Source: a virus. From it: a stretch of DNA of 31,970 bases. The stretch's first letter is position 1, and every line of letters begins with the position of its first letter. Under the pieces are notes generated by a model. The model saw only the letters and a list, made by a program, of their open reading frames with translations. It had not been told where the DNA came from and did not search any database. The translations under genes were made by a program, and so were the position numbers. This document shows, one piece after another, positions 6,085-13,754 of this stretch. The DNA is taken from positions 1 to 31,970 of IMG/VR virus record IMGVR_UViG_3300048017_000130, one strand, 5' to 3'.

Positions 6085-6235
6085 CTTAATGCAGAGAGTA
6101 CGCGATATGTTTCGCCCTTATACTCTAGAGGACTTCATGGAAGACGCAGACCCAAAAGATTACAAAGATATTCAGCGACTGGAAGCAGTATGGCAGAAGC
6201 ATCGCGAACGTAAACTTTTTGATAACTGCTATTGA
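6074..6235 (+). CDS. Small acidic hypothetical protein
   Basis: A 53-residue protein (if started at 6074) containing the FRPYTLEDFMEDADPKDY stretch. It overlaps the end of the previous gene by 11 nt. Internal ATGs at 6089 and 6107 are alternative starts; the last follows GAGAGTACGCG and may be the true one. It ends 5 nt before the degenerate tRNA at 6241. Unrecognised. Confidence 0.6.
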   Translation: MLSNLMQRVRDMFRPYTLEDFMEDADPKDYKDIQRLEAVWQKHRERKLFDNCY

Positions 6236-6240
6236 AATAC

Positions 6241-6311
6241 CGCGGTGAGTCAGGGTAGAAGCAAGTCTCATAAGCTCCGCTTAGAAGGTTCGAATCCTTC
6301 CACCGCAACCA
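6241..6311 (+). tRNA. Degenerate initiator-like tRNA (anticodon CAT)
   Basis: The T arm is perfect (GAAGG-TTCGAAT-CCTTC, 6284-6300) and CCA is encoded (6309-6311). The acceptor pairs GCGGTG with CACCGC, while position 1 (C6241) faces A6307: this C1xA72 mismatch is the hallmark of bacterial initiator tRNA. The anticodon loop is CTCATAA (6267-6273). However, the anticodon stem has only about three pairs, the D stem is barely formed and the length is only 71 nt. It may be a decayed tRNA-fMet, a minimal tRNA or a tRNA mimic. Confidence 0.5.
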
Positions 6312-6339
6312 AACAACAGGCTATGTGCCTGTCCTAAAC

Positions 6340-6381
6340 TAAGGTTTAGGTTTGCCAAAACCAAGGTAAACCTAAACCTTA
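6340..6381 (+). repeat. Perfect 14-bp inverted repeat before a small gene
   Basis: TAAGGTTTAGGTTT (6340-6353) and AAACCTAAACCTTA (6368-6381) are exact complements around a 14-nt loop. A second hairpin, ACAGGC/GCCTGT, lies just upstream. No T-run follows, so it is not a standard terminator. The TTGGAG ribosome binding site of the next gene starts 6 nt after it, so the hairpin could set mRNA processing or translation. Confidence 0.7.
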
Positions 6382-6398
6382 TTTAATTGGAGAAACAA

Positions 6399-6581
6399 AT
6401 GTCAGATGGAGGCAAAGGCTCAAAGCCTAGACCCTTAAGCGTATCAGACCAAGAGTACGCAGATCGTTGGAACGCAATCTTTGGTAAAGATTCGGAAACA
6501 GATAAAATTACCCGTAACAACGCCGAAACTCAAGAAGTACAAAACTTTGAAGTTGACTCAAGCGGTAAAAGTTTGTTATAA
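6399..6581 (+). CDS. Small conserved phage protein (GGKGSKPRP type)
   Basis: A 60-residue protein starting MSDGGKGSKPRPLSVSDQ and continuing EYADRWNAIFGKD. Small proteins with a GGKGSxxRP(F/L)SV...YxxRWDxIFG layout are widespread in unrelated phages, function unknown. The ATG at 6399 follows TTGGAGAAACAA. The C-terminal third is polar and probably disordered. Its last codons overlap the -35/-10 region of the tRNA promoter. Confidence 0.78.
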   Translation: MSDGGKGSKPRPLSVSDQEYADRWNAIFGKDSETDKITRNNAETQEVQNFEVDSSGKSLL

Positions 6582-6582
6582 T
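6553..6582 (+). promoter_or_regulatory. Promoter of the tRNA cluster
   Basis: TTGACT (6553-6558), 18-bp spacer, TATAAT (6577-6582). It is embedded in the last codons of the small gene at 6399-6581 and would start transcription just before tRNA-Leu at 6595. Confidence 0.68.
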
Positions 6583-6594
6583 ACTTATTATGCG

Positions 6595-6678
6595 GCGAGT
6601 ATGGGGGAATTGGTAGACCCAGAAGACTTAAAATCTTCCGCGTAATGCGTATCGGTTCGACTCCGATTACTCGTACCA
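6595..6678 (+). tRNA. tRNA-Leu (TAA)
   Basis: Acceptor GCGAGTA pairs with TACTCGT (one G-T pair). Anticodon arm GAAGA-CTTAAAA-TCTTC gives anticodon TAA. A long variable arm (CGCGTAATGCGT) marks a class II tRNA, fitting Leu. T arm is ATCGG-TTCGACT-CCGAT; discriminator A and CCA are encoded. Confidence 0.95.
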
Positions 6679-6711
6679 ATTTAAAATGCAAGCACCTAAT
6701 GGCTATAACAT

Positions 6712-6770
6712 AGTGCAGAGTTACAACATTAATAGTATGTAACACAGCAGGTTTGATTCCTGCACACACT
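6712..6770 (+). other. tRNA-like remnant (T arm without full cloverleaf)
   Basis: A perfect T-type arm GCAGG-TTTGATT-CCTGC (6747-6763) follows a 6-bp stem GTTACA/TGTAAC (6720-6725, 6738-6743). The set is enclosed by AGTG (6712-6715) and CACT (6767-6770). The last 3 nt overlap the 5' end of tRNA-Glu. No credible D plus anticodon arm pair can be drawn, so it is not a normal tRNA: either a decayed gene or an armless mimic. Confidence 0.35.
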
Positions 6771-6843
6771 CGGTTCATCTAGAGGCCTAGGATACCGCCC
6801 TTTCACGGCGAGCACACGAGTTCGAATCTCGTACCGAGTACCA
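6768..6843 (+). tRNA. tRNA-Glu (TTC)
   Basis: Acceptor ACTCGGT pairs perfectly with ACCGAGT. Anticodon arm CCGCC-CTTTCAC-GGCGA reads TTC. T arm ACGAG-TTCGAAT-CTCGT. Discriminator A and encoded CCA end at 6843; the ACCA also forms the first bases of the next element's closing stem. Confidence 0.95.
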
Positions 6844-6942
6844 TTTTTAGTAGCGAATTCATTGGCTATTGCATGTAGGTGTTATTCTCCTCCCTGACAC
6901 CGAGGCAACCTGGAGATTGCGACCAGGCGCTACTAAAATGGT
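6840..6942 (+). ncRNA. Candidate structured RNA module A
   Basis: The outer stem pairs 6840-6855 (ACCATTTTTAGTAGCG) with 6928-6942 (CGCTACTAAAATGGT): 15 bp with one bulged T. Inside are two hairpins, GGTGT/ACACC with a loop holding ATTCTCCTCCC, and CCTGG/CCAGG with loop AGATTGCGA, forming a multi-branch junction. No TTCRA loop or anticodon arm is present, so it is not a tRNA. It contains no reading frame of note. The first strand begins at the discriminator base of tRNA-Glu. RNA function is inferred from structure only. Confidence 0.6.
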
Positions 6943-7027
6943 AATATATTTAAGTAACTTGGAGTGGCCAGCGGGACACTCCAGTAATTAAGGGCTCTGT
7001 CGCAGTAACAAGTTACTTAAATATATT
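6943..7027 (+). ncRNA. Candidate structured RNA module B (19-bp closing stem)
   Basis: The arms 6943-6961 and 7009-7027 are perfect 19-nt complements (AATATATTTAAGTAACTTG on the left). They begin on the base after module A ends. The 47-nt interior contains GGAGTG/CACTCC and a small CTG-TCG-CAG hairpin; the first overlaps the inner end of the closing stem by one base. A perfect 19-bp stem in non-coding DNA is far beyond chance. No T-run follows, so it is not a terminator. Confidence 0.62.
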
Positions 7028-7111
7028 TATTTAGGTAGGGAAAGTAAACGGAGAATGGGCAAGCAAGCGTACTCTAAGCGCGAGCCAGATACCTCACCGG
7101 CCTAAATAAAT
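7025..7111 (+). ncRNA. Candidate structured RNA module C
   Basis: ATTTATTTAGG (7025-7035) pairs with CCTAAATAAAT (7101-7111), an 11-bp closing stem. Its first 3 nt are shared with the right arm of module B, so the two stems cannot both form fully. The interior is purine-rich (GGGAAAG, GGAGAATGGG) with only short internal pairings. GGAGAAT (7050-7056) is complementary to a loop of module A. tRNA-His begins 10 nt after the module. Confidence 0.5.
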
Positions 7112-7121
7112 TACAGAATAT

Positions 7122-7196
7122 GCAGCGTTTAGTGTAGTGGGAGCACACGAATCTGTGAAATTCGTAGATATGGATCGAAACCATAACGTCTGCCCA
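7122..7196 (+). tRNA. tRNA-His (GTG)
   Basis: Anticodon arm CGAAT-CTGTGAA-ATTCG reads GTG. G7122 can act as the extra G-1 opposite C73, as expected for His. The acceptor pairs fully only if one T on the 3' strand is bulged (or T pairing is shifted). The T loop is ATCGAAA, with A instead of T at position 54. CCA is encoded at 7194-7196. Confidence 0.85.
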
Positions 7197-7201
7197 AATT
7201 T

Positions 7202-7276
7202 GGTCTTAAAGTGTTTACGGACGCACACAGCACTGTCACTGCTGTAGATGGGGATCGTTACCCCATAAGACCGCCA
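7202..7276 (+). tRNA. tRNA-Asp (GTC)
   Basis: Acceptor GGTCTTA pairs perfectly with TAAGACC; discriminator G and CCA (7274-7276) are encoded. Anticodon arm CAGCA-CTGTCAC-TGCTG reads GTC. T arm TGGGG-ATCGTTA-CCCCA has an unusual loop lacking both T54 and A58. Confidence 0.9.
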
Positions 7277-7392
7277 GAACCTGCCTTAGGTCCGTTAGAT
7301 GCAAACGGTTATGACAAGGGTTGTTCCTGTCGGGCGTCCGTGAGATTTCACTGCCACACGTTAGTTGGCGCTGGATAAAGTAACCAGCTTAT
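7277..7392 (+). other. Structured spacer E between tRNA-Asp and tRNA-Asn
   Basis: This 116-nt gap is much longer than the 2-3 nt gaps between the following tRNAs. It has no reading frame of note but several hairpins: CCGTT-AGATGCA-AACGG, GAC(A)AGG-GTTGTT-CCTGTC, GTGA-GATT-TCAC, and GCTGG-ATAAAGTAA-CCAGC near its end. No long closing stem is seen. It may be a further RNA element or a processed spacer. Confidence 0.4.
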
Positions 7393-7467
7393 TCCAAAGT
7401 AGCACAGCGGTAGTGCAGTTGACTGTTAATCAATTGGTCGTAGGTTCGATCCCTGCCTTTGGAGCCA
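7393..7467 (+). tRNA. tRNA-Asn (GTT)
   Basis: Acceptor TCCAAAG pairs with CTTTGGA; discriminator G and CCA encoded. Anticodon arm around GACTGTTAATC reads GTT. T loop TTCGATC is standard. D arm AGCACAGCGGTAGTGC is well formed. Confidence 0.95.
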
Positions 7468-7469
7468 GT

Positions 7470-7545
7470 AGGGGATTCGCCAAGTTGGTAAGGCTGTGGA
7501 TTTTGATTCCACCATGCGGTAGTTCGAGTCTATCATCCCCTGCCA
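7470..7545 (+). tRNA. tRNA-Gln (TTG)
   Basis: Acceptor AGGGGAT pairs perfectly with ATCCCCT; discriminator G and CCA encoded. Anticodon arm GTGGA-TTTTGAT-TCCAC reads TTG. T arm GGTAG-TTCGAGT-CTATC. Two nt after tRNA-Asn. Confidence 0.95.
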
Positions 7546-7547
7546 TT

Positions 7548-7622
7548 GCCCGATTAGCTCAGAGGTAGAGCACTCGCCTTGTAAGCGATAGGTCGTCAGT
7601 TCGATTCCGACATTGGGCACCA
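7548..7622 (+). tRNA. tRNA-Thr (TGT)
   Basis: Acceptor GCCCGAT pairs with ATTGGGC (one G-T). Anticodon loop CTTGTAA reads TGT. D arm TAGCTCAGAGGTAGAGC and T arm GTCAG-TTCGATT-CCGAC are canonical. ACCA ends at 7622 and is also the first strand of module D. Confidence 0.95.
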
Positions 7623-7725
7623 TATTTTAGCACTATCAAACCTTAACTGCACGGTGATACCTAGTTTGCTAGCGGCGAACGGGTCTGGTAAGAAGCCCTG
7701 GTATCAGATAGTGCTAAAATATGGT
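7619..7725 (+). ncRNA. Candidate structured RNA module D (19-bp closing stem)
   Basis: 7619-7637 (ACCATATTTTAGCACTATC) and 7707-7725 are perfect complements. Inside, TGATACC pairs with GGTATCA (7 bp), which encloses two hairpins, GTTTGC-TAGCG-GCGAAC and GGG...CCC. The arrangement (long outer stem, second stem, branched core) resembles module A, and both begin in the ACCA of a tRNA. It ends 21 bp before the ClpP-like gene, so it could also act as that gene's leader. Confidence 0.62.
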
Positions 7726-7746
7726 TATTATTTACAGAAAGCACAA

Positions 7747-8331
7747 ATGACAGACGAAACCAAAATCACACTAGGTAAGCAGTATTTTACTAAGAATACA
7801 GGAAGCGTATACGAGTTTTATTTGTCAGGCGAAATTGAAGAAGCCAGTGAGTATTGTGATTGGTTTGATACTATTCGCAATGCTAGATCAACTGACACAG
7901 TTAAAATTTACATTAATAGTTGCGGAGGCGATTTATATACGGCTCTGCAGTTTTTGCGTGTGTTATCAGAAACTGATGCTCATGTAATCACAAGTGTAGA
8001 AGGTGCTTGTATGAGTGCTGCTACAATGATCTTTTTACACGGTGATGAGTTTGAAGTAACACCACACTCATTGTTTATGTTCCACAACTATTCAGCAGGT
8101 GTGTTTGGTAAAGGTGGCGAGATGTTTGACCAATTACAGTTTGAACGTGCTTGGTCAGAAAACTTCTTGCGTGAAGTATATCATGACTTCTTAACACCTG
8201 AAGAAATCAAGTCAATGTTAGACAACAAAGACATTTGGATGACTTCACAACAAGTATTGGCACGAATTGATTTGGTGTTGGCTAAAATGGCTGCGCTACA
8301 AGAACTGGAAACCGAGAAAGAAAATGGCTAA
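7747..8331 (+). CDS. ClpP-like serine protease subunit
   Basis: A 194-residue protein of normal ClpP length. It shows INSCGGD (56-62, oxyanion strand), the nucleophile region EGACMSAATM (85-94, Ser90) and the His region LFMFHNYSAG (109-118, His113); NKDIW near residue 168 could supply the third residue. ClpP forms a barrel-shaped protease fed by a ClpX/ClpA unfoldase; no unfoldase gene is visible, so it may use a host one, or process virion proteins as head-maturation ClpP homologues do. The ATG at 7747 is preferred: an in-frame upstream start would lie inside RNA module D. The ribosome binding site (AGAAAG) is weak. Confidence 0.85.
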   Translation: MTDETKITLGKQYFTKNTGSVYEFYLSGEIEEASEYCDWFDTIRNARSTDTVKIYINSCGGDLYTALQFLRVLSETDAHVITSVEGACMSAATMIFLHGDEFEVTPHSLFMFHNYSAGVFGKGGEMFDQLQFERAWSENFLREVYHDFLTPEEIKSMLDNKDIWMTSQQVLARIDLVLAKMAALQELETEKENG

Positions 8332-13127: not shown

Positions 13128-13754
13128 ATGGCAACACGCAAACGTCCAGCACTAGAAGAAGAATTGATGACTGATTCTAACATCAGCAAAGTCATTCGCC
13201 TTCTTGAGCCTACCGAAGAAGGTAAGAAACCAATTACCAAAAAAGATGCGTGTGCTATTTTAGGCATGGCGTATAATACTACTCGCCTTGGTACTATTAT
13301 TGAAGAATACAAACAAAAACAAATTCGCACAGCACAGCGCAAGTCACAACTTCGCGGCAAGCCTGCCACGCAGGAAGAAAAAGTTTTTATTATCACAGAG
13401 TACTTAAACGGCGAAACAGTCGATGCTATCTCAAAAATGACTTATCGTAGCAGTCGTTTTATCAAAGATATTCTAGAAGGCAATTCAGTACCAATCCGTG
13501 TGCCTGGGTCTAGCTACTTTAGCCCTGAGCTTATTCCTGACGGCGCAATTCGTGACCGATTCAAAATCGGTGAAGTAGTTTATAGTTCACGCTATGACTC
13601 AACTGCACGCATTGATGCTGAACAGAAATCTGAGAAGTATGGCTTTGTTTATCGCATTTGGTTGCTTGCTGACAAGTGGCAACAAAACGCATATCAAGAA
13701 GCTAGTGAGCTTGCCTCACTAGAACACTTGCGTGAAATGGGAGTCAGAATCTAA
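13128..13754 (+). CDS. Putative DNA-binding protein with helix-turn-helix segments
   Basis: A 208-residue protein. The N-terminus is basic (MATRKRPALEEEL). Residues about 35-65 (KKPITKKDACAILGMAYNTTRLGTII) and 85-112 (KVFIITEYLNGETVDAISKMTYRSSRFIKDIL) each look like helix-turn-helix units. The middle part RVPGSSYFSPELIPDGAIRDRFKIGEVVYSSRY could be a small beta domain. It is preceded by AAAGGAATAA and overlaps the PC4-like gene by 1 nt, suggesting shared work on DNA or transcription. No exact family recognised. Confidence 0.7.
   Translation: MATRKRPALEEELMTDSNISKVIRLLEPTEEGKKPITKKDACAILGMAYNTTRLGTIIEEYKQKQIRTAQRKSQLRGKPATQEEKVFIITEYLNGETVDAISKMTYRSSRFIKDILEGNSVPIRVPGSSYFSPELIPDGAIRDRFKIGEVVYSSRYDSTARIDAEQKSEKYGFVYRIWLLADKWQQNAYQEASELASLEHLREMGVRI

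Follow-up and report, generated by a model that had tools for sequence, protein, structure and literature searches.

Comparison with related phages revealed that a phage transfer RNA (tRNA) array contains at least five small structured RNA modules; the tRNAs around them stay in place while each module comes and goes as a complete unit. The array lies in the virus record IMGVR_UViG_3300048017_000130 of IMG/VR, of which all 31,970 bases (the window) were analyzed and in which phage replication genes are present; it spans positions 6595-7622, and a ClpP-like protease gene (7747-8331) comes next. The cores of modules M1, M3 and M4 are conserved folds. We propose that M1-M4, along with a further module, M7, each represent a separate gene for a small structured RNA in the array transcript; the modules would be released by processing and their cores would act in trans, a reading that we consider to have about an even chance of being right. 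The modules, with lengths in nucleotides (nt) and base pairs (bp), are as follows.

6840-6942, plus strand: M1, closing stem of 15 bp with one bulge; 72-nt core with helices P2, P3 (pyrimidine-rich loop) and P4
6943-7027, plus strand: M2, perfect closing stem of 19 bp; 47-nt core (GAGTGGCCAGCGGG ... CTGTCGCAGTAAC)
7025-7111, plus strand: M3, closing stem of 11 bp; core GGAAAGTAAACGGAGAATGGG ... ATACCTCACCGG
7619-7725, plus strand: M4, perfect closing stem of 19 bp (ACCATATTTTAGCACTATC); 69-nt core
7277-7391, plus strand: M7, conserved multi-hairpin spacer between tRNA-Asp and tRNA-Asn, without a long closing stem

A first-pass annotation of the window had described the first three closing stems as adjoining, with spacings of 0 and -3 nt, and an arm search recovered them exactly so. 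The M1 arms (6845-6855/6928-6938) form 11 perfect bp, and one bulge extends the stem to 6840-6942; the M2 arms (6943-6961/7009-7027) are 100% paired over 19 bp; and the 11-bp M3 arms (7025-7035/7101-7111) lie within a weaker 22-nt match. The perfect 19-bp stem of M4 (7619-7637/7707-7725) was found beyond the interval quoted in that annotation. Its statement that such stems are not chance also held, as four stems of at least 11 bp with loops of 25-130 nt were observed in 6200-7800 versus 0.03 expected (maximum 1) in 2000 dinucleotide shuffles. In addition, the longest stem among 200 shuffles of the whole window was 14 bp versus two of 19 bp observed, and folding z-scores were -3.5 for M1, -5.4 for M2, -2.0 for M3 and -6.3 for M4. 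Across 81 related loci, stems of this class occur at 0.40 per kilobase (kb) around tRNAs versus 0.11 per kb elsewhere (3.6-fold). The cores, as had been claimed, hold neither a tRNA nor a reading frame: no open reading frame of at least 60 amino acids crosses 6840-7111 on either strand, and neither ARAGORN nor Rfam called a tRNA or transfer-messenger RNA (tmRNA) at 6844-7111 or 7623-7725.

M3 proved to be a widespread family. A core pattern search found it in 54 contigs, two bacterial contigs and two isolated phages whose hosts are grown in the laboratory, Carin-5 of Cobetia marina (M3 at about 13538-13623) and 1.121.O of Enterovibrio norvegicus (M3 at 140570-140654); the bacterial contigs, one assigned to Polynucleobacter (L160) and one to a metagenome-assembled genome of Patescibacteria (L159), are possibly prophage or phage contigs. 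In the matches listed, the core is followed by the 3' motif ATACCYCACCG or a one-base variant, which was not in the search pattern. In an alignment of 36 sequences, 88% of the structure cells are paired versus 31-47% with the partner slid, none of 500 shuffles reached the covariation score, and RNAalifold, unaided, recovered the same structure. The covariance model matches the window at 82.8 bits. A second, looser search, in which both bases of pair 28-84 were left free, brought the family to 79 distinct homologues in diverse phages, and among these the pair is A-U in 43, G-C in 23 and C-G in 13, with zero mismatches. The family is defined by the core GGAAAGYAAACGGAGNAUGGG ... AUACCNCACCG, in which the invariance of GGAAAG...GGG was partly imposed by the first search pattern, by a complementary 28-84 pair and by a closing stem whose sequence varies freely among homologues while pairing is kept. 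The looser search also gave variants with extra hairpins inserted into the 5' loop, such as those of L186, L188 and L241, where they lie between GGAAAG and AAACGGAG; one variant type carries a AGTAATTAA loop, which is also found in the M2 core.

The modules were also followed through 80 loci obtained by a ClpP scan, in whose arrays they are present, absent or at other places. For M1, 22 aligned sequences support the closing stem, P2, P3 and P4, with 96% of cells paired, 21 pairs doubly changed and 0 of 500 shuffles scoring as high. The P3 stem is fully variable while its loop stays pyrimidine-rich; a pseudoknot between J1/2 and the P4 loop, 82.5% paired, is partially supported. This family combines the four helices with conserved GCUA..G..UGUA and GCG..ACC elements, its covariance model matches the window at 101 bits, and it is single copy in all seven records that carry it. 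Both M1 and M3 appear in other phages with the same core and very different closing stems, which are always complementary. The first-pass annotation had proposed a covariation check on these stems, and their changing sequence with maintained pairing, like the covariation in related phages generally, strongly supports its view of the interval as structured noncoding RNA. Support for M2 is thinner, because the search itself prescribed its two core motifs; M2 was found in five other contigs, and in several of these the closing stem differs. M4 has eight family members with compensated closing and inner pairs, and M7 was aligned in seven phages, where one of its hairpins has compensatory pairs. 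M7 might also fold differently, as 7334-7341 (GCGTCCGT) is fully complementary to 7217-7224 (ACGGACGC) in the D-arm of the upstream tRNA-Asp.

The distribution of the modules argues against the idea, put forward in the same annotation, of one multi-domain RNA, because M1, M2 and M3 occur separately in other phages. In five loci (L005, L007, L009, L010 and L030) M1 stands without M2 or M3 and spans the entire gap from tRNA-Glu to tRNA-Asp; in L011 and L012 it is missing as a unit, leaving 5 nt between the same tRNAs; in L004 M2 lies ahead of tRNA-Asp, 185 nt from M1; and M3 stands by itself in dozens of phages. Similarly, a module occupies the inter-tRNA gap exactly in L007, L010 and L019. In the source phage, joint excision of M1-M2-M3 as a single 279-nt spacer is still conceivable. 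The suggestion of a new class was borne out as to novelty, although several separate new families, instead of one class, were found.

An Rfam 15 scan of the window gave only tRNA at the gathering cut-off, with no module matched; at E<=10 it added sub-threshold chance matches, all outside the modules, and on representative relatives it gave tRNA and permuted tmRNA, again with no match on the modules. GOLLD, the candidate first named, was therefore rejected, and its length of about 800 nt with a conserved 3' region does not fit M1-M3, which total 272 nt and are separate in relatives. Likewise, no Rfam ribozyme model (HDV/theta, where HDV is hepatitis delta virus, hammerhead, twister, pistol, hatchet and others) matched; M1-M3 and M4 drew no ARAGORN or Rfam call as tRNA or permuted tmRNA; and M1-M4 lack the recognizable T-arm of a degenerate tRNA. 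Inverted repeats acting at the DNA level, such as mobile-element ends, were rejected since the arms differ almost completely while pairing is kept and the orientation is always that of the tRNAs. A promoter in the 3' arm (TGnTAAAAT) was likewise rejected; the motif is present in some stems and missing from others. M1, M2 and M4 gave no matches when phage isolates were searched by Blast, and a literature search, with most subscription papers outside its reach, found no earlier description of the modules.

Long stems beside tRNAs appear to form a recurrent slot. In related arrays, 19 of 24 tRNA-Thr(UGU) genes are directly followed by a long stem with CCA at its start and UGG at its end, often just ahead of a permuted tmRNA, versus 1 of 63 for tRNA-Met, and CCA:UGG closure is seen in most of the 53 tRNA-adjacent cases. 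The cores within the tRNA-Thr stems belong to about ten unrelated families, for example M5 (ten members) and M6 (four). A broader proposal is that phage tRNA arrays constitute a general cassette system, in which a CCA-anchored long-stem slot receives many unrelated cores (M1-M7 and more than ten others) swapped between phages, with M3 a widespread member having a catalytic or protein-binding core; we offer it tentatively, as somewhat short of an even chance. In L027 (5382-5479), the tRNA-Thr slot encloses a tRNA-Ser(GGA)-like core within a 19-bp stem. Aquatic phages are known to carry two-piece tmRNAs (PMC9004378), and a permuted tmRNA was seen beside ClpP in ten relatives (L007, L013, L014, L017, L019, L028, L033, L046, L084 and L156); the source record has none, and M4 occupies that slot.

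As to how the modules may work, the array would be transcribed as one RNA from a promoter before tRNA-Leu, and tRNA maturation, by RNase P at the next tRNA and 3' processing after CCA, may free the modules. The long stems of M1, M2 and M4 would probably be cut as double-stranded RNA, by analogy with the RNase III stalks that release ribosomal RNAs (rRNAs), and the paired ends may shield the modules from exonucleases. Once free, the conserved cores would have a trans-acting role during infection, with a partner from the host or the phage; the speed at which cores replace one another in a fixed slot would be in keeping with decoys or with regulators directed against host factors. Exactly one copy of M3 is present in every one of 20 large phage records (91-368 kb), a pattern that suggests a gene and not a repeated site. 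M3 lies within 300 nt of a tRNA in 40 of 79 cases, on the same strand in 40 of 40, and its non-tRNA neighbors are unrelated (terminase, single-stranded DNA-binding protein, UvsX, head protein), which also led us to reject a gene-specific riboswitch. Because M3 combines single copy, unrelated neighbors, strict strand and a conserved core, a trans-acting RNA gene is suggested over a cis-acting site; the one-copy count likewise argues against a general cis site. Several observations weigh against our proposal. The other 39 of the 79 copies have no nearby detected tRNA (some contigs are short), and M3 away from tRNAs often has closing stems of only 4-8 bp, so release by tRNA processing or RNase III is not a general route for M3. 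Strongly diverged second copies would escape the covariance models, and the different cores in one slot could indicate that what counts there is the closing stem alone.

Self-cleavage is the main rival explanation: the modules, M3 above all, would be new ribozymes that cut the array transcript, as has been proposed for theta ribozymes, which in gut phages occupy the 3' ends of tRNAs (PMC10879173). In line with it are a core that is conserved while the peripheral helices and insertions vary, the position of modules directly after tRNA CCA ends or in short intergenic gaps, and the filling of one slot by several different cores, as might be expected of cutters that can replace one another; however, there is one copy per genome despite many array junctions, the distance from M3 to the nearest tRNA varies, no Rfam ribozyme family matched and CCA is paired into many stems, and we judge self-cleavage unlikely. 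Cis-acting spacers or processing signals, in which the long stem matters (for insulation of tRNA folds, an RNase III-type cut or masking of CCA up to the time of processing) and the core is carried along as cargo, would account for the CCA:UGG closure, for its recurrence after tRNA-Thr, for the free swapping of cores and for the plain coreless hairpins after tRNA-Lys and tRNA-His (L027 and L047). Such a role appears more doubtful still, since conservation and compensation extend independently to the core sequences and inner helices, and M3 retains its core where the stem is only 4-8 bp. The modules might also resemble put elements, RNAs that act on the transcribing polymerase as antiterminators and would here carry transcription through long untranslated arrays. 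Their restriction to the sense strand, their location in long untranslated transcripts without terminators and the unrelated downstream genes would suit this role, but with no fixed place at the array start, several unrelated folds within one array and one copy per genome, we regard it as highly improbable.

Set against known systems, the modules are rated by us as new families within an already known category, structured RNA associated with phage tRNAs, in which the cassette arrangement is unusual. The stalks of bacterial pre-rRNA likewise enclose a conserved RNA, cotranscribed with tRNAs, between long complementary arms whose sequence is free to vary; the modules differ in having cores of 47-72 nt that are not rRNA, and their cutting by RNase III is putative. 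Nearest in setting are RNAs C and D (species 1 and 2) of phage T4 (NC_000866, 70908-71171), small stable RNAs without a known function that close the phage tRNA cluster, where rnaD begins 1 nt after tRNA-Arg. Unlike the modules, rnaD lacks a long closing stem and rnaC is closed by short pairs only, and the M1 and M3 models found no match in the T4 region (L169) even at E<=10. GOLLD and ROOL are also phage-encoded structured RNAs near tRNA islands with unknown function (PMC12286853), although they measure 600-800 nt or more versus 85-107 nt for the modules in the window, which are independent and without an Rfam match. Theta (HDV-like) ribozymes are similar as compact RNAs directly at phage tRNA 3' ends; in contrast, the modules match no HDV family and their ends pair with each other, and the tRNAs here encode CCA, versus only 4.5% of theta-associated tRNAs (PMC10879173). 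T4 RNAs C and D have long been known beside phage tRNAs, without comparative leverage; M3, as a family of at least 79 sequences that is single copy in each phage, has a core that hardly varies and includes two isolated phages among its carriers, opens its function to experiment. In addition, the slot by tRNA-Thr and permuted tmRNA, with its swapped cores, suggests a store of RNA families yet to be described.

Further features of the array in the window are as follows.

6553-6582, plus strand: promoter-like site, TTGACT-18-TATAAT with TG ahead of the -10 element, 11 of 12 matches, by consensus match only
6768-6843, plus strand: tRNA-Glu(UUC), its CCA overlapping the base of the M1 closing stem
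7123-7194, plus strand: tRNA-His(GUG), 11 nt 3' of M3
7548-7622, plus strand: tRNA-Thr(UGU), its CCA inside the M4 closing stem

The promoter-like site lies directly 5' of tRNA-Leu and is likely, as judged from its sequence, to be the start of the array transcript. Because this site precedes tRNA-Leu and no terminator-like site was found between 6595 and ClpP, the array is probably one transcript. Two further tRNA-like stretches were observed: 6241-6308, with anticodon CAT, scores 22 bits in Rfam versus a cut-off of 29 and has no ARAGORN call, and 6695-6766, ahead of tRNA-Glu, is degenerate, retains a T-arm (GCAGGTTTGATTCCTGC) and was called by neither program. In the tRNA array of a 368-kb phage record (L104), positions 6198-6307 gave a borderline match to Rfam Atu_At1, at 60.1 bits versus a cut-off of 60.
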